From: Candidatus Krumholzibacteriota bacterium
GTDB taxonomy: Bacteria; Krumholzibacteriota; Krumholzibacteriia; JAJRXK01
Length of the DNA: 64,000 bases
Direction of reading: 5' to 3'
Assembly: GCA_029262065.1 (NCBI GenBank)
Contig: JAJDAC010000017.1
Coordinates: forward strand, 124,001 to 188,000
A program made the translations under genes and the position numbers. Each line of letters begins with the position of its first letter. Position 1 is the stretch's first letter. The notes under the pieces are model-generated. The model searched no databases and was not told the DNA's origin. It worked only from the letters and a program-made list of their open reading frames with translations. Below are positions 38,010 to 51,268 of the stretch, in pieces.

Positions 38010-39218
38010 CTAACGCTTGGCGATGAGGTGGTAGTTCTGGTTGCTCAGCGAGTAGGCGACCCCCTCCCCAACCAGTGAGCTCGAGGCATCGCCTTCGGAG
38101 GTCTGCCACGCCAGGTCCACTTCAACCGTCTCGCCCCGTTCCGCGAAGGCACCCATGGCCTCGATCATGGGAGCAAAGCCCGCGGCAACGCTGAGGGCGA
38201 CACCGTTGCCGTCACTCATTCGTAGGACGAAACGACCGTCCTCGGTCCTCGGCTCGAGCTTGCCTTCCAGGGAAACCCGCTTTCCCAGCAAGGTTTCCGC
38301 GCCTCCCTCGGGTGGCCAATCCACCTTGAGGAACATGCCCGGTTTGTCCGATCGCCCGCGATAAGGCGTTTCCTGGGTTGGTTTCAAGCTAGCAACCTGA
38401 ACCAGCCTCGTACCCTGCGCAAACAACCGGTCGCCTACCACGATCTGGTCCACCTGAAGCTGCCCATCCACCACGCTCATCTCGATCAACGGCGCCGAGT
38501 AGACCTCCTGGGCGTAGCGCAGCACCGGCATGACGTCGTCCATGCCCTCGACCGCGATGTAGCTGCCATCCTTGGTCATGAACCGGTTGTCCTCGACCGC
38601 ACAAACGGCTTGAAGCTTCGCCCGCAACAGATGCGAATAATCGGGGTTGAAGAACCCCTGGAGCGAGCTTTGCGACACCGCCGGCTTCTGGGCCCGCGCG
38701 AATGCGGCCTGCACCGTCACGTCCTGCCGATGGTCACCAAAATGCCGGCTGGCGATCAACGCCACCAGAGCCAGCACCACGACCGGGGCGGCCCGAAACA
38801 GGAATGCCCCGAGGACGGCCTTGGGACCCTTGTCAAACGCCGACTGATGCTCCCGCTCGATGTATTCGATATACGACTCGTCCGAGTGGTGCTCCTTCAA
38901 CTCCTCGGGTAGTTCGGGAACCAGCTCTTCGCCATCGACCACTCGCACATGGAAATGTTCCGTGGCCTGGGCAAGACGCTGCATCTTGCGGCTACTCACC
39001 AAAGCGTGCAGGTCCGGATGCCGGTCGAGCGCGTGCCACATGTAGTACTGGTCTTCGCTCAGGTCTCCATCCGACCCGTCTCCGTCGGGAGAGGGGGGAT
39101 CCACCTCTTCCAGACCCAGCCATCTGCCGATTCTATGTCCCTCGAACGGGCCCATATAGTTATGGAATTTCACATGGAAGAGATTGCCTTCTGGCTTGAT
39201 GGTGACTTGGCGATCCAC
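38010..39218 (-). CDS. Single-pass membrane protein of unknown function
   Basis: About 402 residues from GTG 39218 (preceded by GGGAG); an ATG at 39305 would add 29 residues with no clear sense. The N-terminal 130 residues are cytoplasmic, including the acidic loop PPSPDGDGSDGDLSEDQYYMW. One transmembrane helix lies at about residues 140-165 (APVVVLALVALIASRHFG). The remaining roughly 240 residues are extracytoplasmic and beta-rich with no family I recognise. RFVLRMSDGNGVALSVAAG resembles a ligand-binding-like beta module only loosely. It precedes uup on the same strand and diverges from the cytochrome cluster. Function unknown. Confidence 0.75.
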   Translation of the reverse strand: MDRQVTIKPEGNLFHVKFHNYMGPFEGHRIGRWLGLEEVDPPSPDGDGSDGDLSEDQYYMWHALDRHPDLHALVSSRKMQRLAQATEHFHVRVVDGEELVPELPEELKEHHSDESYIEYIEREHQSAFDKGPKAVLGAFLFRAAPVVVLALVALIASRHFGDHRQDVTVQAAFARAQKPAVSQSSLQGFFNPDYSHLLRAKLQAVCAVEDNRFMTKDGSYIAVEGMDDVMPVLRYAQEVYSAPLIEMSVVDGQLQVDQIVVGDRLFAQGTRLVQVASLKPTQETPYRGRSDKPGMFLKVDWPPEGGAETLLGKRVSLEGKLEPRTEDGRFVLRMSDGNGVALSVAAGFAPMIEAMGAFAERGETVEVDLAWQTSEGDASSSLVGEGVAYSLSNQNYHLIAKR

Positions 39219-39417
39219 AGCGCCATCTCCCGGTTTGAGTGCGAATCCACGGGGTCTGTGAATGCACGTTAACAACGCCCAGGCAGAAATCGCGGCCCAG
39301 ATCACAGAATCACATCGCGCATCACATATACGATACGGGCATTACAACGTACCCTACCTAGTCTTGCATACGGGCCTAGGTGGCTCGTGAACACTCGCAT
39401 TCCGGGAAGGGTTTGCC

Positions 39418-40848
39418 ATGAAGCATCGAACGACCAGATACCTCGTCGCCTCGGCAATCTTGGCGCTGCTATTCATGGCGGGCTGTACCGACGAAAAAAC
39501 GATATTCGTCGAAGTACCGCTGTATGCCGACCCTCCCAGCGCAGCCCTGGGCTTCCTGGGCTACGACGAAGCCAACAAGAAGCTCACCGTATGCGGCAAC
39601 TGTCACGTCGGGCAACAATCGGGGTGGGAGAAAACCGCACATGCCGACGCCTGGAAGACGCTGGCCGACAGCGGTCACTCGCAGGGTTTCTGCGAGGGTT
39701 GCCACACCGTTTCCGAGTTCGGTAACGACGTTTCCGGCACCGATGTGGGTTGGACGGCCACCGCCGACAACCGTTACCTGGATGTGCAGTGCGAGAGCTG
39801 CCACGGTGCCGGACTCGACCACGTCACCAACCCCGACGCCAGCCAACCCCTGGCCTCGATCGCGGTGGCTACCGACGGCACCAACAGCTGTAGCGACTGC
39901 CACGTGGGCAACCACCATCCGTTCGTGGAAGAATGGGCTCAATCGGCCCACTCGGCACCGCTCGACTACATCCTCACGCGTGCGGAGGGCGATCTGGAGG
40001 GTACGCGGTCGTGCCTGGGTTGTCACACGGGCCAGGGCGCACTCGCGAGCTGGGGCATCCGCGCAGAGTACGTGGAGAAGGAAGACCCGGTGGGCGACCA
40101 TCTGGGTATCACGTGCGCGGTCTGCCACGACCCTCACGAGAACAACTACGCGGGCCAGCTTCGCTTCCCGATCGATACCATCGATCTGTCCCAGAACCTC
40201 TGCACGAAGTGCCACAACCGTCGGGGCGAGCCCGATCCGGGTAGCCGGCGTGGCCCGCACGCCCCCGAGGGCCCGTTGATGTTCGACGAGGCCGGCTGGC
40301 GGCCACCGGGCTTCCCCGAGATCGGTACTCTGCTCACCGCGCACGCGGGAAGCGGCAATACGAACCTCTGTGCCGGCTGCCACGTGAACAAGTTCACGGT
40401 GAACGACAACGAGACCGGAGAATTCGCCTTCCAGGCCACCGGTCACGTGTTCACGGCCATTCCCTGTGTGGACGAGAACGGGATACCGTTCGTGCCAGCA
40501 CCGGGCGAAGAATGCGATACGCGTAGCTACCTGGCGTGCTCGACCGGTTGCCACGGCAACGACGAGAACACTGCCCCGGCTATCTGGACGCAGACCGTGA
40601 ACAACATCGCCGACGACATCGCCGACCTCCAGGCTATGCTTGACCAGGTGGACCCGGCCGAGTTTGATGCTTCGGACGGCGTGTTGTCGGTGGCCGAGGG
40701 CGCGACCTTCAACATCGGCCTGGCCGAGAAGCCGGGATCGGCCGCGCACAACGGCATCCTGGTGCAGGAGCTGCTGGACGCAAGCATGGACGCCGTCGCC
40801 GATGAGTACGGCATCACCAAGCGTCAGCGACGAACGCGCAGCCGCTGA
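39418..40848 (+). CDS. Multihaem cytochrome c lipoprotein, 8 CXXCH plus one CX3CH
   Basis: A 476-residue protein with a lipoprotein signal (lipobox FMAGC, Cys23). I count eight CXXCH haem sites (CGNCH, CEGCH, CESCH, CSDCH, CLGCH, CAVCH, CTKCH, CAGCH) and one CSTGCH, a CX3CH site that may or may not bind haem. Haem-free C-terminal residues 385-476 are helical. It would be lipid-anchored in the periplasm or on the outer surface. It opens a run of cytochrome genes, 29 bases before the next start, so it is likely co-transcribed with the electron conduit. Exact redox partner is unknown. Confidence 0.9.
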   Translation: MKHRTTRYLVASAILALLFMAGCTDEKTIFVEVPLYADPPSAALGFLGYDEANKKLTVCGNCHVGQQSGWEKTAHADAWKTLADSGHSQGFCEGCHTVSEFGNDVSGTDVGWTATADNRYLDVQCESCHGAGLDHVTNPDASQPLASIAVATDGTNSCSDCHVGNHHPFVEEWAQSAHSAPLDYILTRAEGDLEGTRSCLGCHTGQGALASWGIRAEYVEKEDPVGDHLGITCAVCHDPHENNYAGQLRFPIDTIDLSQNLCTKCHNRRGEPDPGSRRGPHAPEGPLMFDEAGWRPPGFPEIGTLLTAHAGSGNTNLCAGCHVNKFTVNDNETGEFAFQATGHVFTAIPCVDENGIPFVPAPGEECDTRSYLACSTGCHGNDENTAPAIWTQTVNNIADDIADLQAMLDQVDPAEFDASDGVLSVAEGATFNIGLAEKPGSAAHNGILVQELLDASMDAVADEYGITKRQRRTRSR

Positions 40849-40877
40849 TCTATCTGAGGGCCGGGGAGGCCTAGCGA

Positions 40878-42443
40878 ATGTTTCGCCGAGTATGGCAACG
40901 CTTCGTCGGGCTCCCCCGGCCAGCCCTCGTAATCCTCGCCGCCACAACCGTGGCGGCGGTTACGCTTCTGGCCGTAAAGGCCTACGAATACTACGACTAC
41001 GTCGAACACGACAACGACTTCTGCATGGGGTGCCACCTCATGGAAGACCCCTACCGTCGTTTCGTGGAGAGCGGCCACCGCGATCTGAGCTGCAAGGCCT
41101 GCCACAAGCCCTCGATGATCGAGCGAAGCCAGATGGCCCTGACGGCCGTCATCGAAAATCCTGACGACATCAAATCGCACGCCAAGGTGCCCAATTCGAA
41201 GTGTGCCGCGTGCCACATCGACGGTGACCCCGAGGAATGGAAGGTCATCGCCAATACGCCCGGCCACCGTGTGCACTTCGAATCGGACGACCCCGTCCTG
41301 GAGGGGTTGCAGTGCGTGAAATGCCATTCGGCTGCGATCCACGATTTCATTCCCCTGGATCGGACCTGCGGCCAGGCGGGCTGCCACGTAGGCCTGAAGG
41401 TAACCCTGGGCAAGATGGCGGCCGCCAACGAGCTGCACTGCGTGGGCTGCCACAATTTCCTGGCGCAAGACCGCGAAACCACCGTGGCCGCCGACCTCAC
41501 GCCGCGACAACAGGACTGCATGGGATGCCACGACATGCAGGCGGTACTGGCCTCGATCGACATGACGGACGAACCGCACGACGCGAACTGCGCCACGTGC
41601 CACAACCCGCACGAGCAAACCACACCCCATGACGCCGAACAGACGTGCGCCGCCGCGGGCTGCCACAGCGACCTGAAGTCGGTTTCGTTTCACCAGGGAA
41701 TCGACGACTCCACGCTACTGCAATGCGTGCGTTGCCATGAACCCCACTCGTGGCAACCCCCTTCAACCGCATGCCAGGACTGCCACAAACTCACGTCGAA
41801 TGGTTTCGTTCACGCCGGACGCACCACGCCCTCTCCACCCACCTGGGACTTCTCCCACACTCGGCACGCCAAGGTGGAATGCCGCGAGTGCCACGACTCA
41901 TCGGAAAGCCACGGCCAGCTCGTGGTCGGCAAGCTGGAATGCAACAAGTGCCACCACGATGCCCAGTCGCCGAGCGTGATCGCCGCCGGAGGGGAATGTA
42001 CTACCTGCCATGACCTTCCCATCGGCGGCCCCCTCAACGTGGAGCTCACACTGAACCTCACGGTGTGGGACGCGCCTCGCACGCGCGAACTACCGTTTGG
42101 GCACGCCCCCCACGCCGAGGTGCCGTGTCGCGATTGCCATTCGAACAGCGCGGACATGCTCGACGTTCCGCACTGCGGCACCTGCCACGGTGAGCACCAC
42201 TCACGCGACAACGCGTGTTGGCTTTGCCATAGTACCGATGTGCAGGCAGCCCACACGGTAGCGGCCCACGACGGCTGCCAAGCGGCCGGGTGCCATGCGA
42301 ATCACGTGGTATGGCCGGTGCTCGAACAGAACTCCACGTGCCTGGTGTGCCACGCCGACCAGCGCGATCACGAGCCTGGCGGTGATTGCGCCGAATGCCA
42401 CGGCATCCCCCACGGAGTGGGTTGGTCTAAGGTGAAGGGATGA
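40878..42443 (+). CDS. Membrane-anchored multihaem cytochrome c, about 20 haem sites
   Basis: A 521-residue protein with one N-terminal transmembrane anchor (LVILAATTVAAVTLLAVKAY, about residues 17-36) like NapC/NirT/CymA-type quinol dehydrogenases. I count 17 CXXCH and three CX4CH sites (CGQAGCH, CAAAGCH, CQAAGCH), 20 in all. The first two-haem block, FCMGCHLMEDPYRRFVESGHRDLSCKACH, is the NapC-like quinol-oxidising head. The rest is a string of haem motifs with little between them, a wire-like arrangement. Its stop overlaps the porin gene by 4 bases. The product is expected to carry electrons from the quinone pool across the periplasm. Confidence 0.9.
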   Translation: MFRRVWQRFVGLPRPALVILAATTVAAVTLLAVKAYEYYDYVEHDNDFCMGCHLMEDPYRRFVESGHRDLSCKACHKPSMIERSQMALTAVIENPDDIKSHAKVPNSKCAACHIDGDPEEWKVIANTPGHRVHFESDDPVLEGLQCVKCHSAAIHDFIPLDRTCGQAGCHVGLKVTLGKMAAANELHCVGCHNFLAQDRETTVAADLTPRQQDCMGCHDMQAVLASIDMTDEPHDANCATCHNPHEQTTPHDAEQTCAAAGCHSDLKSVSFHQGIDDSTLLQCVRCHEPHSWQPPSTACQDCHKLTSNGFVHAGRTTPSPPTWDFSHTRHAKVECRECHDSSESHGQLVVGKLECNKCHHDAQSPSVIAAGGECTTCHDLPIGGPLNVELTLNLTVWDAPRTRELPFGHAPHAEVPCRDCHSNSADMLDVPHCGTCHGEHHSRDNACWLCHSTDVQAAHTVAAHDGCQAAGCHANHVVWPVLEQNSTCLVCHADQRDHEPGGDCAECHGIPHGVGWSKVKG

Positions 42444-43918
42444 TCTCCCGACGCTCGATTGACTCGATCGTCCGCTCGTTGGCGCTGTCCGCGGTTTTGG
42501 CGGTGTTCGCAGCGCCAGCCCAATCGCAGGGAGTTCGCGTGTTCGGCGAAACCCTGGTGCGCTACATCGATGTCCGAGGCTTGCGACAGGTCGTGGTAGA
42601 TGCAGCCGACCTGCCGGGTGAGGGCACGATTCGCCAACTCCCCGACGGTCGATGGGTGCAGTGTGTCGTTACCGATTCCACCTGCACCTATTTCGAGACC
42701 GGCGACCTGCAGTCTACCGCCCCCATCACCCAGGACCTTCGCGCCAGCACCTGGGCCCGGGGAGGAATCCAGGCCTACGGCCACGTACGGCTCCGGTCCG
42801 GCCTGGGATCACTGGACGAATTGTGGCCCCAATCCGACGACACGGTCGACGTCATATCGCTCTACGCGCAGTGGAGGTACCGCTGGCTTCGGACCCGAGG
42901 CGGACGACAATTCCACCGTTCCACGCTGGGATACTTCAACTTCGACGGTGGCTTGGTCGACGCTGCCCCCTGGCCCTGGTTGCGGATCACGGCGATGGGC
43001 GGCTGGAGTCTGGCGCGCGGGCTGAACGAACCTCGTACATCCGACGCACTCTCGAGTGTGGAACGCTTTGCACCCGATCAGCGCGCCGCGGTGTTCGGTG
43101 GCCAATTGACCGTTCAGGATCGCAACCGTGGCTCCTTTCGGATCGAGTACCTGCGCGAAATCCGCACGGATCGCCTGGCGTTGTACTCCGATCGCGTCGG
43201 TGCGGCCGGCAATCTACGCTGGCGTCGGTTCAGCCTGAACGGGCGAGCCCAACGCGACATCGCCACCGACGTTTGGAACGAGCTCCGCGGGCGACTCGTC
43301 ACCCACCTGGGAAGCGACTGGAGCGCGGAGGTTTCGGCTCGTACCTCACAGCCCTTCTTCGAACTCTGGACCATCTGGAATGCCTTTTCGCCGGTGGGTT
43401 TCGACGAGTATGGCGGCAGCATCCACTACTCGCCCGCGCTGCAACCGGTACGGATCTCGATCGACGCCACGCGTCGCAGCTACGACGAGACAAACGTGGG
43501 ACTGACGTTCGCGCCAATCCGAAACGACGGATGGCACGTCGGCAGCAATGCGTGGTGGCGCCTGAGCGAGCGGTGGACAGTGCAGGCTGGTTACGCCGCC
43601 GACATCGGCTTCGGCGAGGCACGTAGCGAGGGCAACGGGCGGGTGGCCTGGTCGCCAAACGAGAAGATTGACGCCGGCCTGACCGTGCAGGCCTTCGACT
43701 ACGTCCGGGAGTTCCGAATCGCGGGAAGCACGGTCTGGGGCATCGGCGGTGATGCGTCCTGGCGAGTGGGAACGGACACTCGGCTGACGCTGGGATACAT
43801 CTCCTACCGGCACGAAGAGGATCCCCGCCTGGGAGCCATCGACTGGAACCAGAGCCGGGCGTTCGCGCGAATGCAGTGGGCCCTGGGCAAAGACCCCGGC
43901 GTGGGACGTGCGCCATGA
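42440..43918 (+). CDS. Outer-membrane beta-barrel (porin-type) of the cytochrome cluster
   Basis: A 492-residue protein with a signal peptide (SLALSAVLAVFAAPAQSQ) and many alternating hydrophobic/aromatic strands (GSIHYSPALQPVRISIDATRRS; WHVGSNAWWRLSERWTVQAGYAADIG; TRLTLGYISYRHE) expected for a large beta-barrel. It lacks haem motifs. Its position between two multihaem cytochrome genes with 4-base overlaps on both sides is like porin-cytochrome conduits (MtrB or OmbB role), where the barrel sheathes a cytochrome through the outer membrane. Sequence resemblance to those families is not evident to me; the role is inferred from position and topology. Confidence 0.75.
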   Translation: MISRRSIDSIVRSLALSAVLAVFAAPAQSQGVRVFGETLVRYIDVRGLRQVVVDAADLPGEGTIRQLPDGRWVQCVVTDSTCTYFETGDLQSTAPITQDLRASTWARGGIQAYGHVRLRSGLGSLDELWPQSDDTVDVISLYAQWRYRWLRTRGGRQFHRSTLGYFNFDGGLVDAAPWPWLRITAMGGWSLARGLNEPRTSDALSSVERFAPDQRAAVFGGQLTVQDRNRGSFRIEYLREIRTDRLALYSDRVGAAGNLRWRRFSLNGRAQRDIATDVWNELRGRLVTHLGSDWSAEVSARTSQPFFELWTIWNAFSPVGFDEYGGSIHYSPALQPVRISIDATRRSYDETNVGLTFAPIRNDGWHVGSNAWWRLSERWTVQAGYAADIGFGEARSEGNGRVAWSPNEKIDAGLTVQAFDYVREFRIAGSTVWGIGGDASWRVGTDTRLTLGYISYRHEEDPRLGAIDWNQSRAFARMQWALGKDPGVGRAP

Positions 43919-45327
43919 GAAGCACGGCGCGAAACTGGTTGATGGGATTGGCCGTGGTGACGTTCACGGCGATGGCCGTGTGGTCAGGTGCGCAGCAGCC
44001 GGCCACGGCCCGGCAATCCACCGCCGCGTTTCCTCACGTGGAACACGAGCACGTGTTTCCGGTCTGCACGGGCTGCCACGCCGGACTGACCGAGACCGGC
44101 GCCCCGACGTTCCCCGAACCAGAAATGTGCGCTCAATGTCATGACGGCGACAAGCGCGACCGCGTCGAATGGGCCTTGCCCCGCCCGCGACGATCCAACG
44201 TGAGATTCAACCATGTCGAGCACGCGGCCGAGGCCGAGTGCCGACAGTGCCACGTCAGCGGAGAAGGGCGCATGGGCGTGGCCATGGCCAACTCCGCCGC
44301 CTGTTTCGAGTGCCACGAGATCGCCCCTGACGACCACCTGGCCACCGGCACGCCGTGCGCCCTGTGTCACGACGCTCTGGCTTCCTCCCCCTCGTTGTCC
44401 TCCATGGACATCGCGGGCTTTCCCCAGCCACCCTCCCACTCCGAGCCAGAGTTCGCACTGGATCACGCCGGGCTGGCCGAAGCGTCCATGACGACCTGTG
44501 CTGTTTGCCACACCCGGGACTCCTGCACGGTCTGCCACCGCAACTCCGAGGGCCTCCGGCTGGTGGCCGGACTCCCCTCCGACCCGCGCGTGGCCGAGCT
44601 GACCGCCGGCAAGGTAGGGCACTATCCCGAACCACCCAGCCACGACGACCAGTGGATCCAGAAACACGGTCGTGCCGCGCTGCTGGACATCGACTCCTGC
44701 GCCAACTGTCATGTGCAATCGAGCTGTCGCACGTGTCACGCCGACGGCGAGGCGCGCGTGTTCGCCGAGCAACTTCCATCGCTGCGCGCCGGCGAGCGGG
44801 CCCTGATCGCGCGTCAGCCCGATGACCTGTTCCACCGCGCGAACTTCCGGATGGATCATGCCATCGAAGCGAGCCTCGAAGGCGATACGTGCGCGAGCTG
44901 CCATTCACCACAAACGTGCACGTCGTGCCACGACGGGATGGACTCGGCCAGCTTCCACGGCGCGAACTTCCTGGAGCGCCACGGCGCCGACGTATACGGG
45001 GCACGCTCGGAGTGCTCGACTTGCCATAGTGTTGAGGGCTTCTGCCGAGGCTGCCACCAGGACCTGAAGCTGGCCCAGACCTTCGGCACCGCAACGTTCC
45101 ACGACCGACAACCGCAATGGCTGCTCGCGCACGGGCAGGCCGCGCGGCAAGACCTGGTAAGTTGTGCTTCGTGTCACGCTCAGACCGACTGCACACGTTG
45201 CCATGCCGCCCGTGGCGGATGGTCGATCTCGCCGCATGGGCCTGGCTTCGACCCGCAGGCCATGGCGGACGCCAACCGCATCACTTGTCTCGTTTGCCAC
45301 CCCAGCGATCCCCTGGGCGGGTTCTGA
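43915..45327 (+). CDS. Exported 16-haem cytochrome c
   Basis: A 470-residue protein with a signal peptide (WLMGLAVVTFTAMAVWSGAQQ). The ATG at 43915 overlaps the porin stop as ATGA. I count 16 CXXCH motifs (for example CTGCH, CAQCH, CRQCH, CFECH, CALCH, CAVCH, CTVCH, CANCH, CRTCH, CASCH, CTSCH, CSTCH, CRGCH, CASCH, CTRCH, CLVCH). Many free His lie before them (FPHVEHEHVF, FNHVEHAAEAECRQCH) as potential distal ligands. Density is about one haem per 29 residues. It is the best candidate for the cytochrome passing through or sitting outside the barrel. Confidence 0.9.
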   Translation: MRSTARNWLMGLAVVTFTAMAVWSGAQQPATARQSTAAFPHVEHEHVFPVCTGCHAGLTETGAPTFPEPEMCAQCHDGDKRDRVEWALPRPRRSNVRFNHVEHAAEAECRQCHVSGEGRMGVAMANSAACFECHEIAPDDHLATGTPCALCHDALASSPSLSSMDIAGFPQPPSHSEPEFALDHAGLAEASMTTCAVCHTRDSCTVCHRNSEGLRLVAGLPSDPRVAELTAGKVGHYPEPPSHDDQWIQKHGRAALLDIDSCANCHVQSSCRTCHADGEARVFAEQLPSLRAGERALIARQPDDLFHRANFRMDHAIEASLEGDTCASCHSPQTCTSCHDGMDSASFHGANFLERHGADVYGARSECSTCHSVEGFCRGCHQDLKLAQTFGTATFHDRQPQWLLAHGQAARQDLVSCASCHAQTDCTRCHAARGGWSISPHGPGFDPQAMADANRITCLVCHPSDPLGGF

Positions 45328-45334
45328 GAAACCT

Positions 45335-45841
45335 TCAGTTCTGCGAGCCGGCCTTCAGTTTCCCGGCACGGGGATCGGATCGACTCGGCTCGACCATCGG
45401 ATCGGCAATGGAAGACCGTAGCGCGTCTCCAATGGGATCCGGCGTGCGATCGAATACCATCATGGCCTCGATTCCCCGTGGCGTCCGAAACCCGAATATC
45501 GAGACCATCTTTCCACTGAGTTGTTGCGGCGAAGGCAAGGCGTCGCGGGTTTCCATACCAGCAAACACCGTGTCGCGACCGAAGAACACCGGCGTGCGGC
45601 CAACGCGTAGTCCCTGCCGGGAACTGAAGCGTAGTGGGCCAGAAACCCGAACCGTAGGCTGGCCGGCCGTAGTGGGTCGACCGGGCGTACTCGGCTTCGC
45701 AATCACACCGCGTTCGGGGTCGGAGGCGCGTTGCAGGCGCACCGAACCGGCCGCCTCGGCGACGTCACCGGAAGTGACCAACCCCACCACCGCGACCGAT
45801 CCAATCGCCAAACGAACCAAGATCTTGCGGAACTCCATCAT
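45335..45841 (-). CDS. Small exported protein of unknown function
   Basis: A 168-residue protein with an N-terminal signal segment (RLAIGSVAVVGLVTSGDVAEA). The rest is Pro/Gly/Arg-rich without a family I know; it contains GRTPVFFGRDTVFAGME and a repeated RxPR style. It starts at ATG 45841 (or the next ATG, 45838), overlapping the stop of the PilY1-like gene by 4 bases, so the two are probably co-translated, which suggests a PilY1-associated role. It is convergent with the 16-haem gene, 7 bases apart. Confidence 0.7.
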   Translation of the reverse strand: MMEFRKILVRLAIGSVAVVGLVTSGDVAEAAGSVRLQRASDPERGVIAKPSTPGRPTTAGQPTVRVSGPLRFSSRQGLRVGRTPVFFGRDTVFAGMETRDALPSPQQLSGKMVSIFGFRTPRGIEAMMVFDRTPDPIGDALRSSIADPMVEPSRSDPRAGKLKAGSQN

Positions 45842-48543
45842 TGACCTCCCAGGCCCTCGATCTCAGGGAATTCTTCGCGCCAGTTGTTCACGATGACCCG
45901 GCGAGGTGAAGCGTTCATATCGAAGAACGAAATGCGTGCGTCGCTGGTCTGCACCGTCAACTCACCCTCTTCGAGATCGACCACCGGAGTCGAGGCAATG
46001 CCTTCTCCAACGCTGGTAACCCGATCACTGGTACCACCATCCATGGCCAGGCCGTCGTGGAACCGCATGTGATAGAGCCAGGAGTTTCCCCCGATTTCGC
46101 AAAGCAGACTCTCGGGTGAGAACGAGGTGAAATAGGCCACGCCCTCGATCACGCGGGCTGGCTCGACGACACGTTCACCCGGACTCTGTACCAGATCGAT
46201 GTACCAGCCGGGCTCGCTCTGGAGTTCGGAGGGTGAGCTGGTCTGGTCGACCAAAGACGACCGCGAAACGTACGACTGCGTCAGGTCGTCGATCACACAG
46301 TAGAAGCTCTGCATATCGGTGTTGGCCAGATCCGAGTTTTGCAGATAGCGCCCGGTACCGAAATACACCAGGGCATCGCCGATCGCGTTGATCGACACGG
46401 AGGGGCGCGCCTGGATCGGCTGACTGCCGGAAAACAATACGGTACCCGACCAATTGGCGGGATCCTGATCGCGGATGTCCCATCGCCAGAGATTTCCCGC
46501 CAGATCCCCCTGATAAAGGTAGTCGGCGTCGCCGTCCCAATCGTTGTCGTAGACCACTGCTTCCGAGGCCGCGTTTACATCACTGTGCAAGCTACCCACG
46601 GACGCGGTGAATTCCACAGCTCCGGTCACGGCATTCAACAACGCTACCGTGGCTTCGCCGCCTACATCGGGGCCACTGCCCACCCAGAGATAAGTGGCGT
46701 TCGTCTTGCGAACCATGGCGGGACGAGTGAACGAAGATCCAATCTCGGGTACGGACGTTTCCCAGAGCACGCCCGGCGAGTTCGGGTCGGTGACATCCAG
46801 GGCAAAGTAGGCGTCGCCACCGGTGCGGGTGCCGCCGACAAGCACCGTTCGCCACGTACCACCCACCTTGAACTCGAAGGCGGCCGGTGTCAGATCGACG
46901 AAAGCCTTGTGGCAGAACGCCGGGTCGGTCAGGTCGACCAACTTTCCCAACAACGATTCGGGAACGTAGCCCCAGCGTTCTTGGCCCGTAGACGCATCGA
47001 AGGCGTGCAGCATTCCATCGTTGCCGCCCACGTAGACTGTCTCCGGTCGCGAAGCGTGGAAGTACAGGTAGCTTTGGTAGCTCTCGTCGACGATGAACGC
47101 TCGCGGCGGGCCAACCACCAGGGGCGAGGAGTGGATCACGTCGCCCAGTTTCCAGCCGCCTCGGTCCCGCATGCCCGAGATTGCCTTGCCGCGCACGAAT
47201 TCAATGATGTCCAACGCGGCCTGTTCAGGGTCACCCTCGCCACTGGTGCCAAGACTTGTGACAAGAGCCGATGCCTGCGCATCGTTGAAGTCGACCAACA
47301 CCCCGCCCTGCGACGTAAATATGTTGCGACTGCTCTCCGACCGCGAAGCCAGCAAGGCACCTGCCTCCCAGACCGGCGAAGCACCCTGGGTGTACGGAAG
47401 GTTGTAGGCCTCGAGGTAGCCAGCCCACTGGCCAGGAATGTACTTGGCGCGGTACAAACGATCTTGCGACGCACCCTCATTGGAAACCACGGCGGCCGCA
47501 CCACCGGTGGTCACGCCGGCCAGGATCGCGGTCAGGGCCGAGCCGAGACTCTGCTGCAAAGTTGCAAGATTCCACGCCACCTCGTACGTTCCGCCACCGT
47601 TGGCGGCGGCCTCGGCCAGCAGCGGAATGTCGATTCCCATGCCGATGGTGAACGTGTTCACGAACTGATCGCCGTCCAGATCCGAACGCACATCGGTGTG
47701 CGCCAGGTAGTAGGCCACATCGTCCAGGTAGTCCGAGCAGTTGGCGCTGTTGGGCTCGAGAGCGCCGATGCTCGAACAATCCCCGGGCTCGTTTCCGTCG
47801 CCATCCTGATCACCGATGTAGCTGGGAACATCCAGATCCTGCGTGGGGAAACCGTCGGTGACCACGATGATGTAGCTGGGCTGGCAGGCCGCCTGTATGG
47901 GCGCGGAGCTGCCTGTCGTCTGGAAGTACGTGAGAGCGTCGACCATCGCCTCTGCGGTTGGCGTGAGTCCGCCGCCCGTCAGCGTATTCAGATCTGCAAT
48001 GAGTGTGGCGGGATCGGTGCCGATGTCGCTCACAACAATGCCACCCGTATCTCCGTTCAGGCGCATGAGTCCGAATCGCAACCCGGTGGAACTATTGATG
48101 ACCGATTCGATGGCTACCTTGCCCACTTCCATGCGCGTGACCTGGGGCAGGGCATCACGCTGCTCCTGCGTCGCGTGGTAGAAGATCCAGTTGAGGTAGT
48201 TGCCGAAGTAGCGGGCATTGTTGCCCGAATCGCTCTGAATGAGCGGCGCGAGCGGAGTCGACGGTAGATCGTCGTCGAAAGAGTTTGGCGAGTAGTCGCC
48301 ATCACTGCTCACCGTGAAGGTTTGCATGGAACCGAACGGGCCCGAGTAGGTGGCGTAGTTGTCGAAGTCCTCGTGGGTAATGGCCGAGCGCATCGACCCG
48401 GACGTGTCCAGGAGGAACAGCACATTCGCGGCCGAAACACCCTGTTGGATGGTGAGCGGGATCTCACACTGGGCATGGGCCGAATGGGCCGTGCAGGCGA
48501 CAACAACGAAAACGACGAACGAGAGAGAGCAACGGCGAATCAT
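45838..48543 (-). CDS. PilY1-like protein with vWA and propeller domains
   Basis: About 901 residues from ATG 48543 (GGAGGCGCT just upstream). A signal peptide ends at SAHAQ. A von Willebrand A domain starts at NVLFLLDTSGSM (MIDAS DxSxS) and runs to about 350; it includes DQDGDGNEPGDC. From about 480 to 840 is a PilY1-type C-terminal propeller: VYVGGNDGMLHAFDASTGQERWGYVPE and DNDWDGDADYLYQGDLAGNLWRWDI, the last with PilY1's Ca-loop and blade pattern. PilY1 proteins sit at type IV pilus tips and mediate adhesion. No type IV pilus assembly genes are in the window, so partners must lie elsewhere or it acts in adhesion with the fimbrial cluster. Confidence 0.87.
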   Translation of the reverse strand: MIRRCSLSFVVFVVVACTAHSAHAQCEIPLTIQQGVSAANVLFLLDTSGSMRSAITHEDFDNYATYSGPFGSMQTFTVSSDGDYSPNSFDDDLPSTPLAPLIQSDSGNNARYFGNYLNWIFYHATQEQRDALPQVTRMEVGKVAIESVINSSTGLRFGLMRLNGDTGGIVVSDIGTDPATLIADLNTLTGGGLTPTAEAMVDALTYFQTTGSSAPIQAACQPSYIIVVTDGFPTQDLDVPSYIGDQDGDGNEPGDCSSIGALEPNSANCSDYLDDVAYYLAHTDVRSDLDGDQFVNTFTIGMGIDIPLLAEAAANGGGTYEVAWNLATLQQSLGSALTAILAGVTTGGAAAVVSNEGASQDRLYRAKYIPGQWAGYLEAYNLPYTQGASPVWEAGALLASRSESSRNIFTSQGGVLVDFNDAQASALVTSLGTSGEGDPEQAALDIIEFVRGKAISGMRDRGGWKLGDVIHSSPLVVGPPRAFIVDESYQSYLYFHASRPETVYVGGNDGMLHAFDASTGQERWGYVPESLLGKLVDLTDPAFCHKAFVDLTPAAFEFKVGGTWRTVLVGGTRTGGDAYFALDVTDPNSPGVLWETSVPEIGSSFTRPAMVRKTNATYLWVGSGPDVGGEATVALLNAVTGAVEFTASVGSLHSDVNAASEAVVYDNDWDGDADYLYQGDLAGNLWRWDIRDQDPANWSGTVLFSGSQPIQARPSVSINAIGDALVYFGTGRYLQNSDLANTDMQSFYCVIDDLTQSYVSRSSLVDQTSSPSELQSEPGWYIDLVQSPGERVVEPARVIEGVAYFTSFSPESLLCEIGGNSWLYHMRFHDGLAMDGGTSDRVTSVGEGIASTPVVDLEEGELTVQTSDARISFFDMNASPRRVIVNNWREEFPEIEGLGGQ

Positions 48544-48727
48544 AGCGCCTCCGAAAACCGTCGATCGACGGGTAACCCGGAGCCTGCGAGCCCCGAGAAG
48601 ATAGGACCGGGATCCAATACCCGGGCAAGAACTGCACCACGAAGCCAGGTATGGCGCCAATTGGGCATAGGGGAATCAACGAGGAAACAACGGGACATCA
48701 CGAGAAACAACGATCAATCACTCGCCG

Positions 48728-51268
48728 CTATTCGCCCCGCAGCAAACGAACTACCAAGCGACCAGGTGCGTCCTTCAGTCCTATATCCACCGGTCCACTG
48801 TCCTCAATCGCAAGTCCGTGACGCACGAGGTATTGAGGATCCAGCTCGACGTCGTAGGAACCCGGCGGCACCGAGAGAAGGTAGAACTCGCCGTCGTGGA
48901 ACGTTCGCACCGAGAATGAGCGATCGCTGTCGCGGTCAACCAGACGAAGCGAAACGCCACCGAGCGCCGCACCATTTGTAAGTTCGACTCGCCCCTCCAC
49001 TTCCCGCCCTTCCAGCACCGGCAGATCAAGATCACCGTATCCGTTGGGCGGGACTTCGATGGCCGCCACTTCGAAGTCGGGCACCAGCATGGGATTCTCG
49101 AGCGAAGATGGGTCGATCTCCACGCGCGTTTCGATGAATGGCGTGAGGTTCCAGACCGAGAATTGACCCAACTCATCTGTACTGGCCACCTGACCGCCTA
49201 CGAACAGTCGTGCGCGAGGCACCGGAAGCTCATCTCGATCGCGTCGACCATTGGCATTGGCATCGACGTACAGCGTGCCACGCACACCGCCACGCCCCAG
49301 GGAACGAAACGGATGGGCTTCGATCTGGCCGGCAAGGCCATTCCACCGCAGTGAGCCTTCGCCGGTGGTGTACGAGTCGTAGGTTCCGTTGGTCGCGCGC
49401 GTAACGCTCGCGGTGGAATGCACGCTGGCGGCGGTATTGGAAACGGCGACCGTGAACGAGGGACGCTCGTCGGTCCGATACCACAAGGCTCCCACTTCGA
49501 TTCGAGCCGTGCGCGCGAAGGTGCGTCCCACGCTCATACCGGCCAAGTCGCGTGAGCCCACGCCGGTATCGATCTGACCGAACGACCGAACGAACAACTG
49601 CCTCAACGGGCCGAAGCCCTTGCCCAGCACGAGGTTGGCATTGAACTCCAAGGACGACGAGCGAGATTCAAACGCGCCCGCGCGAAACCACTGCTCGCGA
49701 AGGGTCAGCGTACTGCGAACTCCACCGATCCGGGAGGTGACACTTAGCGTTGAAGTGGTCGTGTCGCCAAGGCGGCTACCCAGATTCGAGCCGCTGGCTT
49801 GCACAAATAGTGACCGACGGCTCGGCCAGGGGCGCCAGAACACTGAACCCCGCAACAGGCTGGATTCGCCGGTGCGAGTCAAAATTGGCTGGGTTGCCGA
49901 ACGGTCATACCACTGACCGTCCCACGAAGTGCGGAGGTTGGAGCTGGGCTCGAACCCCAGGCGCAAACCCTGCAATGCATTCAGGATCGACTCGTAGCGA
50001 ACCGTCCAGGACGAACCCAAACTCCCGGCGACCGTTGCATACGGATGCACCAGGTCTCCCTCGGCGCCGCGAAAGAACGCGTCGGTCCCGCCGCGCACCG
50101 TCCAGTTGGAGTTCAGTCCGTATCGCAGATCCAGATTCATCGTCCCCTGACAGTCATCGTCGGGGCAGTCGCCCGCGCTGGCGCCGTATTCCAGCGCCTC
50201 AGCCGGAATGCGATCGAACCCGACTCTCATGGCGTCTTCGAAAATGCGCACTTCCCCGTGCGGTCCATAGGCGCGTACCTCTACCGCGTTGGATCCGTAG
50301 TCCAGCGGCACTTCAAATTCGTAGTAACCCCGCGCGTCGGTGCGCCCGTACGCGACGATCTGTCCGTACGCATGCACCTCGACCTCCCAATCGGGAGCCA
50401 GCGTGCCTCGTATTCGTCGCTGGCCGAAATCCAACGGCCGAACGTAGGGAGAATTGGTCATGGCCACGCCGCGCGTCGACCGGGGGCGCGGCGAAGTGGT
50501 AGTGGCACGCCCCAGCTGAACCTGCTTCAACCATGGGTCCTCGGGCCACACACCCAACCAGGTACCGTCGAGACTCGATGAAGACCCACCGAACTGATGA
50601 CGCGCGTGAAGGTCGAGTCCGCCGCCCAGAACGTTGCCACCCAGGCTCAACGAGCCCGACGTGGCGCCTTCTTGACTCAGGTTGGGAACCGATAGGGACC
50701 AATCGACGGTGGCGCCGCGCCACCACGATCGGCGCACATCGAACGTGAGGTCGGCGGGTGCCGCAGCGCCGGACACGAGCGACCGGCGTTGGAACTGGCG
50801 CGCCAGGCGCCTTCCCACTGGTAGTTCGTCCACCGGGTCGAAAACCGCGGTCAGGTCCGCGAAGCTGACGTGGATCGGCACTCCGATCAACTCGGCCAAC
50901 AACTCGGCTTCCACGAACAACTGCCCGGCGTCGACGAGCTGCCACGGCGCGTCCAACACGCGCGGTAGTTCGTTTATCCACGCCGTCCGGGCCGTGGCGT
51001 CGAGCCGAAGCGAGAATTCCCGTGCATCATCGGTCGCCAGCAGAACGCCCGTGGTATCAACCTGGGATTGGATTTCGAGTAGATCAAAGGTAGGCGCGAC
51101 CGGAAGCAGCATGTGCATGCCGTCGTGGTACCCCATCACGGTGGTTCGCGCCAACTGTCCGGCGCGGACCTCCACCAACAGCTCCTCGAACATCGGAGGC
51201 TCGGCTGCGGTCACCGTCGCCAGCCCGGTCGCACTGATGACCAACCCCAGAACGAGAAGCCGTATCAC
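48728..51268 (-). CDS. Outer-membrane usher-like protein (fimbrial assembly)
   Basis: An 846-residue protein with a signal peptide. The N-terminal 200 residues lack the FimD NTD signature but include a beta-rich region. A central barrel (about 200-640: VDWSLSVPNLSQEGATSGSLSLGG) is followed by a C-terminal Ig-like part with GLAGQIEAHPFRSLGRGGVRGTLYVDANANGRRD and VPRARLFVGGQVASTDELGQFSVWNL. PYVRPLDFGQRRIRG plus the plug-like GYYEFEVPLDYGSNAVEVRAYGP are typical of usher families of the CS1/archaic type, which pass subunits through the outer membrane. It precedes the chaperone and two DUF4402 subunit genes on the same strand in reverse order of transcription. Confidence 0.8.
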   Translation of the reverse strand: MIRLLVLGLVISATGLATVTAAEPPMFEELLVEVRAGQLARTTVMGYHDGMHMLLPVAPTFDLLEIQSQVDTTGVLLATDDAREFSLRLDATARTAWINELPRVLDAPWQLVDAGQLFVEAELLAELIGVPIHVSFADLTAVFDPVDELPVGRRLARQFQRRSLVSGAAAPADLTFDVRRSWWRGATVDWSLSVPNLSQEGATSGSLSLGGNVLGGGLDLHARHQFGGSSSSLDGTWLGVWPEDPWLKQVQLGRATTTSPRPRSTRGVAMTNSPYVRPLDFGQRRIRGTLAPDWEVEVHAYGQIVAYGRTDARGYYEFEVPLDYGSNAVEVRAYGPHGEVRIFEDAMRVGFDRIPAEALEYGASAGDCPDDDCQGTMNLDLRYGLNSNWTVRGGTDAFFRGAEGDLVHPYATVAGSLGSSWTVRYESILNALQGLRLGFEPSSNLRTSWDGQWYDRSATQPILTRTGESSLLRGSVFWRPWPSRRSLFVQASGSNLGSRLGDTTTSTLSVTSRIGGVRSTLTLREQWFRAGAFESRSSSLEFNANLVLGKGFGPLRQLFVRSFGQIDTGVGSRDLAGMSVGRTFARTARIEVGALWYRTDERPSFTVAVSNTAASVHSTASVTRATNGTYDSYTTGEGSLRWNGLAGQIEAHPFRSLGRGGVRGTLYVDANANGRRDRDELPVPRARLFVGGQVASTDELGQFSVWNLTPFIETRVEIDPSSLENPMLVPDFEVAAIEVPPNGYGDLDLPVLEGREVEGRVELTNGAALGGVSLRLVDRDSDRSFSVRTFHDGEFYLLSVPPGSYDVELDPQYLVRHGLAIEDSGPVDIGLKDAPGRLVVRLLRGE

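Follow-up and report, generated by a model that had tools for sequence, protein, structure and literature searches.

Porin-cytochrome conduits of the MtrCAB, MtoAB and PioAB type combine a barrel encoded beside a periplasmic multihaem cytochrome with a surface lipoprotein cytochrome and a NapC-type quinol-side protein. Haem-richer designs are also on record: in PCC3, a porin is accompanied by very haem-rich, repeat-rich extracellular and periplasmic cytochromes (medians of 34 and 21 haem sites, respectively) and by a separate five-helix inner-membrane protein that likely carries b-haems (He et al. 2017, PMC5566968). Among quinol-side proteins, the quinol dehydrogenase NrfH has an anchor helix and a CXXCHxM first haem, carries four haems and pairs with NrfA. 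ImcH of Geobacter extends a NapC/NrfH-like anchor into a longer run of 6-10 haems; it has three helices and opens with an atypical CX3CH site, and it has not been found beside mtrAB-type genes (PMC6295460). At the cell surface of Gram-positive thermophiles, OmhA and OcwA have been described as terminal Fe(III) reductases (PMC12203936, PMC7829351, PMC6703420); OcwA belongs to the wider NrfA/octahaem superfamily, reduces nitrite slowly and also acts on hydroxylamine (PMC6703420).

Each component of the MtrCAB-type systems is paralleled in a cassette of four consecutive forward-strand genes at 39418-45327 of the window (the whole 64,000-nucleotide stretch that was analysed), where the barrel gene adjoins a periplasmic multihaem cytochrome gene, the general mark of porin-cytochrome systems. 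The encoded proteins carry 9, 20, 0 (barrel) and 16 haem motifs, exactly 45 in all; the earlier note had placed the genes and counted the sites of each correctly, giving about 45 overall, and the ATGA overlaps by which it linked the last three genes are present at both junctions. A gap of 29 bases separates the first gene from the second, the genes flanking the cassette lie on the opposite strand, and, signal peptides aside, the four genes together encode a single membrane helix, in P0002. The features of the cassette are:

39418..40848, + strand: P0001, 9-haem lipoprotein cytochrome (h9L), probably surface-side; 476 aa, 9 motifs, OmhA/OcwA-related
40878..42443, + strand: P0002, 20-haem membrane-anchored cytochrome of two joined modules; 521 aa, 20 motifs, modules also found as separate proteins
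40878..41792, + strand: N11 module of P0002 (first 305 residues), NrfH-like head with CXXCHxM (Met55), 11 haem sites; NrfH match, stand-alone homologues
40920..40979, + strand: predicted membrane anchor helix of P0002, about residues 15-34; hydropathy 2.29, aligns with the NrfH anchor
41841..42440, + strand: C9 module of P0002 (residues 322-521), periplasmic, 9 haem sites; stand-alone homologues by the barrel
42440..42443, + strand: ATGA overlap of P0002 and P0003, junction GGG-ATGA-TCT
42440..43918, + strand: P0003, outer-membrane beta-barrel, predicted 22 strands and no plug; 492 aa, 21 homologues at 29-40% identity
43352..43378, + strand: invariant barrel motif PFFELWTIW, identical in 22/22 sequences
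43915..43918, + strand: ATGA overlap of P0003 and P0004, junction GCC-ATGA-GAA
43915..45327, + strand: P0004, periplasmic 16-haem cytochrome (h16), candidate barrel insert; 470 aa, 16 CX2CH

Upstream and divergent from the cassette, 38010-39305 (- strand) encodes a protein without a Pfam match, which has a homologue in a genome of the same family (L035:17876-19159, 34% identity, E 1.6e-78), about 8 kb from a 12-haem conduit. Directly behind the cassette, 45838-48660 (- strand) encodes a PilY1-like protein with a von Willebrand domain, resembling type IV pilus tips; next, at 48728-51268, comes the gene for a large protein that has a carboxypeptidase-regulatory-like domain.

Haem sites, modules and predicted barrel

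Seventeen CX2CH and three CX4CH sites make up the 20 of P0002, the first being CMGCH, and all 20 motifs, 19 further histidines and Met55 are invariant in 11 sequences of the family. By profile, the head matches NrfH (2j7a, E 2e-9), including the Met-ligand motif, and P0002 has the layout of the NapC/NirT/NrfH group, an N-terminal anchor with an NrfH-like haem domain behind it. P0002 shares the anchor helix and the CXXCHxM first haem with NrfH and differs from that four-haem protein in its 11 + 9 haems; it scored 32.7 bits against the NrfH equivalog TIGR03153, below the cut-off of 134.2, and only 28.3 bits against the DmsE (MtrA) family, whose cut-off is 192.2. The NapC/CymA-like anchored head and the wire-like run of haems read from the DNA in the earlier note are both upheld.

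The N11 module aligns with 11-haem proteins that stand alone at two loci, L053 and L069, where their genes follow those for Rieske protein and cytochrome b (37-41% identity, E about 1e-64), and the C9 module with stand-alone 9- or 10-haem proteins encoded directly upstream of a barrel (30-42% identity, E 1e-23 to 1e-33). Between the two modules, the linking segment varies in length within the family. Judged from these alignments, P0002 is a fusion of two cytochromes that also exist apart, one with 11 haems and an NrfH-like head and one with 9 haems. Since N11 occurs on its own next to Rieske/cytochrome b genes and C9 on its own next to the barrel, both modules can be tied to one pathway. The earlier view of a single protein serving as anchor and periplasmic wire, against the textbook split, holds insofar as two cytochromes are joined here, although ImcH, with three transmembrane segments and seven haems, is a smaller-scale precedent (PMC6295460). 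A 25-haem protein at L072:12493-14634 combines a NapC-like head with an 8-haem stretch resembling N11 and two stretches resembling C9, and may extend the joined wire further still.

In P0004, 16 CX2CH motifs and 16 non-motif histidines are invariant across 19 sequences of the family, providing one candidate distal ligand per haem. Its relatives among solved structures, found by profile search, are high-molecular-weight cytochrome c and c7-type multihaem chains; MtrA (6r2q_A) was absent from the matches. The structure model of P0004 is poor (pLDDT 55.5) and was not used, so that its shape and fit in the barrel remain at the level of a candidate.

P0003 contains no haem motif. Its AlphaFold2 model (mean pLDDT 80.4, pTM 0.74) is a plug-free barrel of 22 strands. 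Nutrient porins have 16-18 strands and MtrB has 26; the P0003 barrel is predicted to be wider than the former. A profile search against PDB sequences yielded no match, MtrB included, and Foldseek of the model against the PDB returned only generic barrels (query-normalised TM up to 0.46), with MtrB absent from the top 50, so kinship with MtrB is neither supported nor refuted by the fold search.

P0001 carries eight CX2CH sites and one CX3CH site behind a MAG-C23 lipobox (Cys23 codon at 39484-39486), and Cys23, the nine motifs and nine non-motif histidines are invariant among 13 aligned sequences. Its nearest relatives among solved structures, by profile, are OmhA (6QVM, E 1.9e-19) and OcwA (6I5B, E 8.5e-13), the latter likewise with nine haems. 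P0001 differs from both in being a lipoprotein encoded in a Gram-negative cassette and in offering a candidate sixth ligand to each of its haems: in OcwA, two haems (2 and 5) are high-spin, whereas the nine invariant non-motif histidines of P0001 are candidate ligands for all nine. As far as sequence can tell, P0001 is probably a surface-side cytochrome, its exposure being presumed.

The number of invariant candidate sixth ligands equals the number of haems in each cytochrome (16 of 16 in P0004, 19 histidines plus Met55 for the 20 of P0002 and 9 of 9 in P0001), as expected for electron wires. All 16 motifs of the P0004 family (19 sequences) and all 20 of the P0002 family (11 sequences) are kept at 34-42% identity to the window, and this conservation, together with the recurrence of the gene order, indicates that the features of the cassette are not due to chance.

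Distribution in Gemmatimonadota and in the window's own phylum

Searching GTDB genome contigs with P0003 recovered 22 loci, all from Gemmatimonadota, with 29-40% identity along almost the entire protein. Using profiles of all four families, we examined the genes around 76 barrels other than that of the window. A member of the 16-haem family is encoded next after the barrel at all 76 loci, a gene for the joined, 20-haem N11-C9 protein directly precedes the barrel at 41/76, and the 9-haem lipoprotein lies upstream of it at 56/76; the gene order, whose recurrence the earlier note had proposed to check, is thus repeated across Gemmatimonadota. Part of the 76 loci were found with the barrel query itself, so the figure to use for prevalence is the 88 of 297 sampled Gemmatimonadota genomes (~30%) with a barrel match, nearly all of them strong. 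The presence of the same cassette in many Gemmatimonadota suggests that it is probably a real and largely undescribed electron route.

C9 alone precedes the barrel at 14/76 loci, or 12 once contig ends are dropped (L063 and L103 were rejected as split loci on this ground). The 12 remaining C9 genes have an in-frame stop upstream and mostly encode an export signal or lipobox. About 21 of the 76 barrels have other content in the preceding slot, part of them at contig ends; at five Gemmatimonadota loci (L118, L119, L120, L121 and L137), several small cytochromes with 2-7 sites each, relatives of a 9-haem family (h9B), replace the joined wire. Exactly 20 motifs are present in 40 of the 42 joined ORFs, the window included; the other two, with 13 and 17, lie on contigs that begin inside the gene. 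Early and late branches of the barrel tree alike include the joined form, and at least six changes between the joined and split states (42 joined, 12 split) are needed. At L053:1422-11431 and L069:3626-13262, the split system lies near genes for a Rieske protein, a cytochrome b, a further 9-haem protein and the stand-alone 11-haem NrfH-headed cytochrome, possibly a bc-type quinol-oxidising complex dedicated to the conduit. Co-occurrence of Rieske/cytochrome b with such conduit clusters has been noted in cave metagenomes.

Within the window's own phylum (80 genomes in the set, compared with more than 297 of Gemmatimonadota), the only strong barrel match is in the window's genome. Searching the phylum with P0003 gave no close homologue outside that genome, the barrel profile gave only weak matches, several of them the barrels of the phylum's own triad, and P0003 and P0004 had no match among plasmid records. 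This triad, common in the phylum and found in the window's family and class, consists of a barrel, a 12-haem (8-14) cytochrome and a multihaem lipoprotein with up to 26 sites. It is seemingly absent from the window's genome, which has the Gemmatimonadota type instead. Triad loci are:

L034:6626-9729
L035:8529-10016
L036:7311-9670
L043:4000-7372

Distant homology links the triad 12-haem protein to P0004 (hhalign E 1e-35, a comparison inflated by the shared haem motifs) and the triad barrel to P0003 (probability 96.5%, E 7e-10, a comparison free of such inflation). On this evidence, the cassette and the triad probably form one broad conduit lineage. In the barrel tree, the window is nested among Gemmatimonadota on a long branch, and an AU test did not reject Gemmatimonadota as a single clade with the window outside (p 0.336); given this result and the long branch, we do not claim transfer from Gemmatimonadota.

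Proposed electron route and alternatives

The cassette is very probably a trans-envelope conduit, whichever way the electrons flow. With good though lesser confidence, we read it as a complete outward conduit of an Mtr-unlike lineage, in which quinol-side anchor and periplasmic wire are one polypeptide and in which complex formation, surface exposure, outward direction and acceptor are presumed. Electrons would enter from menaquinol at the NrfH-like head of P0002 (in some relatives, the N11 head would probably receive them from the Rieske/cytochrome b complex encoded alongside), pass from the 11-haem N11 to the 9-haem C9 module across the periplasm, continue to the 16-haem P0004, putatively threaded inside the P0003 barrel, and leave through the 9-haem lipoprotein P0001 to an acceptor outside.

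More tentatively, and with the balance tipping slightly the other way, the 20-haem protein may physically connect the quinol pool with the outer-membrane conduit across the periplasm, making a diffusing carrier unnecessary. Two cytochromes and a barrel would then suffice to span the envelope, and this tethered arrangement may be standard in much of Gemmatimonadota, whose members are not usually associated with extracellular electron transfer. The strongest argument for the joined P0002 as a bridge between two membranes is the separate occurrence of its modules, one with the quinol-side complex and the other with the barrel. Whether the periplasm is crossed in extracellular respiration by diffusing carriers or by a fixed wire is an open question, which becomes directly testable with joined and split versions of one system in nature. 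Gemmatimonadota are abundant in soil and sediment and, if the proposal is true, would gain a defined candidate route for mineral respiration.

The same conduit might instead run inward, as in MtoAB/PioAB, with Fe(II), Mn(II) or some other external donor supplying electrons to the quinone pool through the 16- and 20-haem proteins. Conduits are reversible in principle, and anchors of the CymA type are known from Fe(II) oxidisers as well as from Fe(III) reducers (PMC6295460); however, the likeness of the surface candidate P0001 to terminal Fe(III) reductases and of the head to the quinol-oxidising NrfH family speaks for outward flow without settling the direction, and we regard inward flow as unlikely. 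Less likely still is a conduit feeding a surface enzyme that reduces not a mineral but a soluble compound (nitrite, hydroxylamine or DMSO, for example). In its favour, OcwA, from the same OcwA/c554 group as P0001, acts on both nitrogen compounds (PMC6703420), yet candidate distal histidines for all nine haems leave no obvious open catalytic haem, a motif scan of the cassette proteins found no CXXCK, the mark of an NrfA-type catalytic haem, and no molybdoenzyme gene lies within the cassette. Clustering of the cytochromes with nitrite or sulfite reductases, which the earlier note had named as an argument against a conduit, did not materialise, their best matches lying elsewhere, and we rejected a nitrite-reductase reading; the point needs care, since P0001 is kin to OcwA, itself of the NrfA/octahaem superfamily. 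A nutrient porin merely adjoining the cytochromes of another pathway, the other objection foreseen, is highly improbable and was likewise rejected: a weak Porin_4 score, below cut-off, and best Foldseek matches to substrate porins at low TM stand against the 76/76 linkage to the 16-haem family, the ATGA overlaps and a predicted plug-free barrel of 22 strands rather than 16-18.

Comparison with described conduits

The preferred reading, an outward conduit, retains the conduit anatomy, NapC/NrfH-like head, haem wire and gene order seen in the earlier note, which had overstated how far the design departs from known ones. The premise there that known conduits pair a barrel with a decahaem-scale cytochrome goes too far, larger cytochromes being known in PCC3 (PMC5566968). 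The cassette shares the haem-rich porin-cytochrome design with PCC3 but lacks the five-helix protein, its anchor lying within the periplasmic cytochrome, and is set apart by the published description of PCC3. Compared with MtrAB/MtoAB, there is no sequence match to MtrB or MtrA, the cytochrome has 16 haems and not 10, and the barrel has 22 predicted strands and not the 26 of MtrB; unlike in MtrCAB, MtoAB and PioAB, the NapC-like head is fused to a periplasmic wire. P0002 likewise falls outside ImcH, having one helix, a CX2CH first site, 20 haems and a place beside a barrel. Our search of the open-access literature turned up no account of the four-gene form or the 20-haem joined protein, nor of their spread in Gemmatimonadota. 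Porin-cytochrome conduits, haem-rich ones such as PCC3 and anchors with longer haem runs such as ImcH were thus already known, and it is the fused four-gene form that appears to be new.
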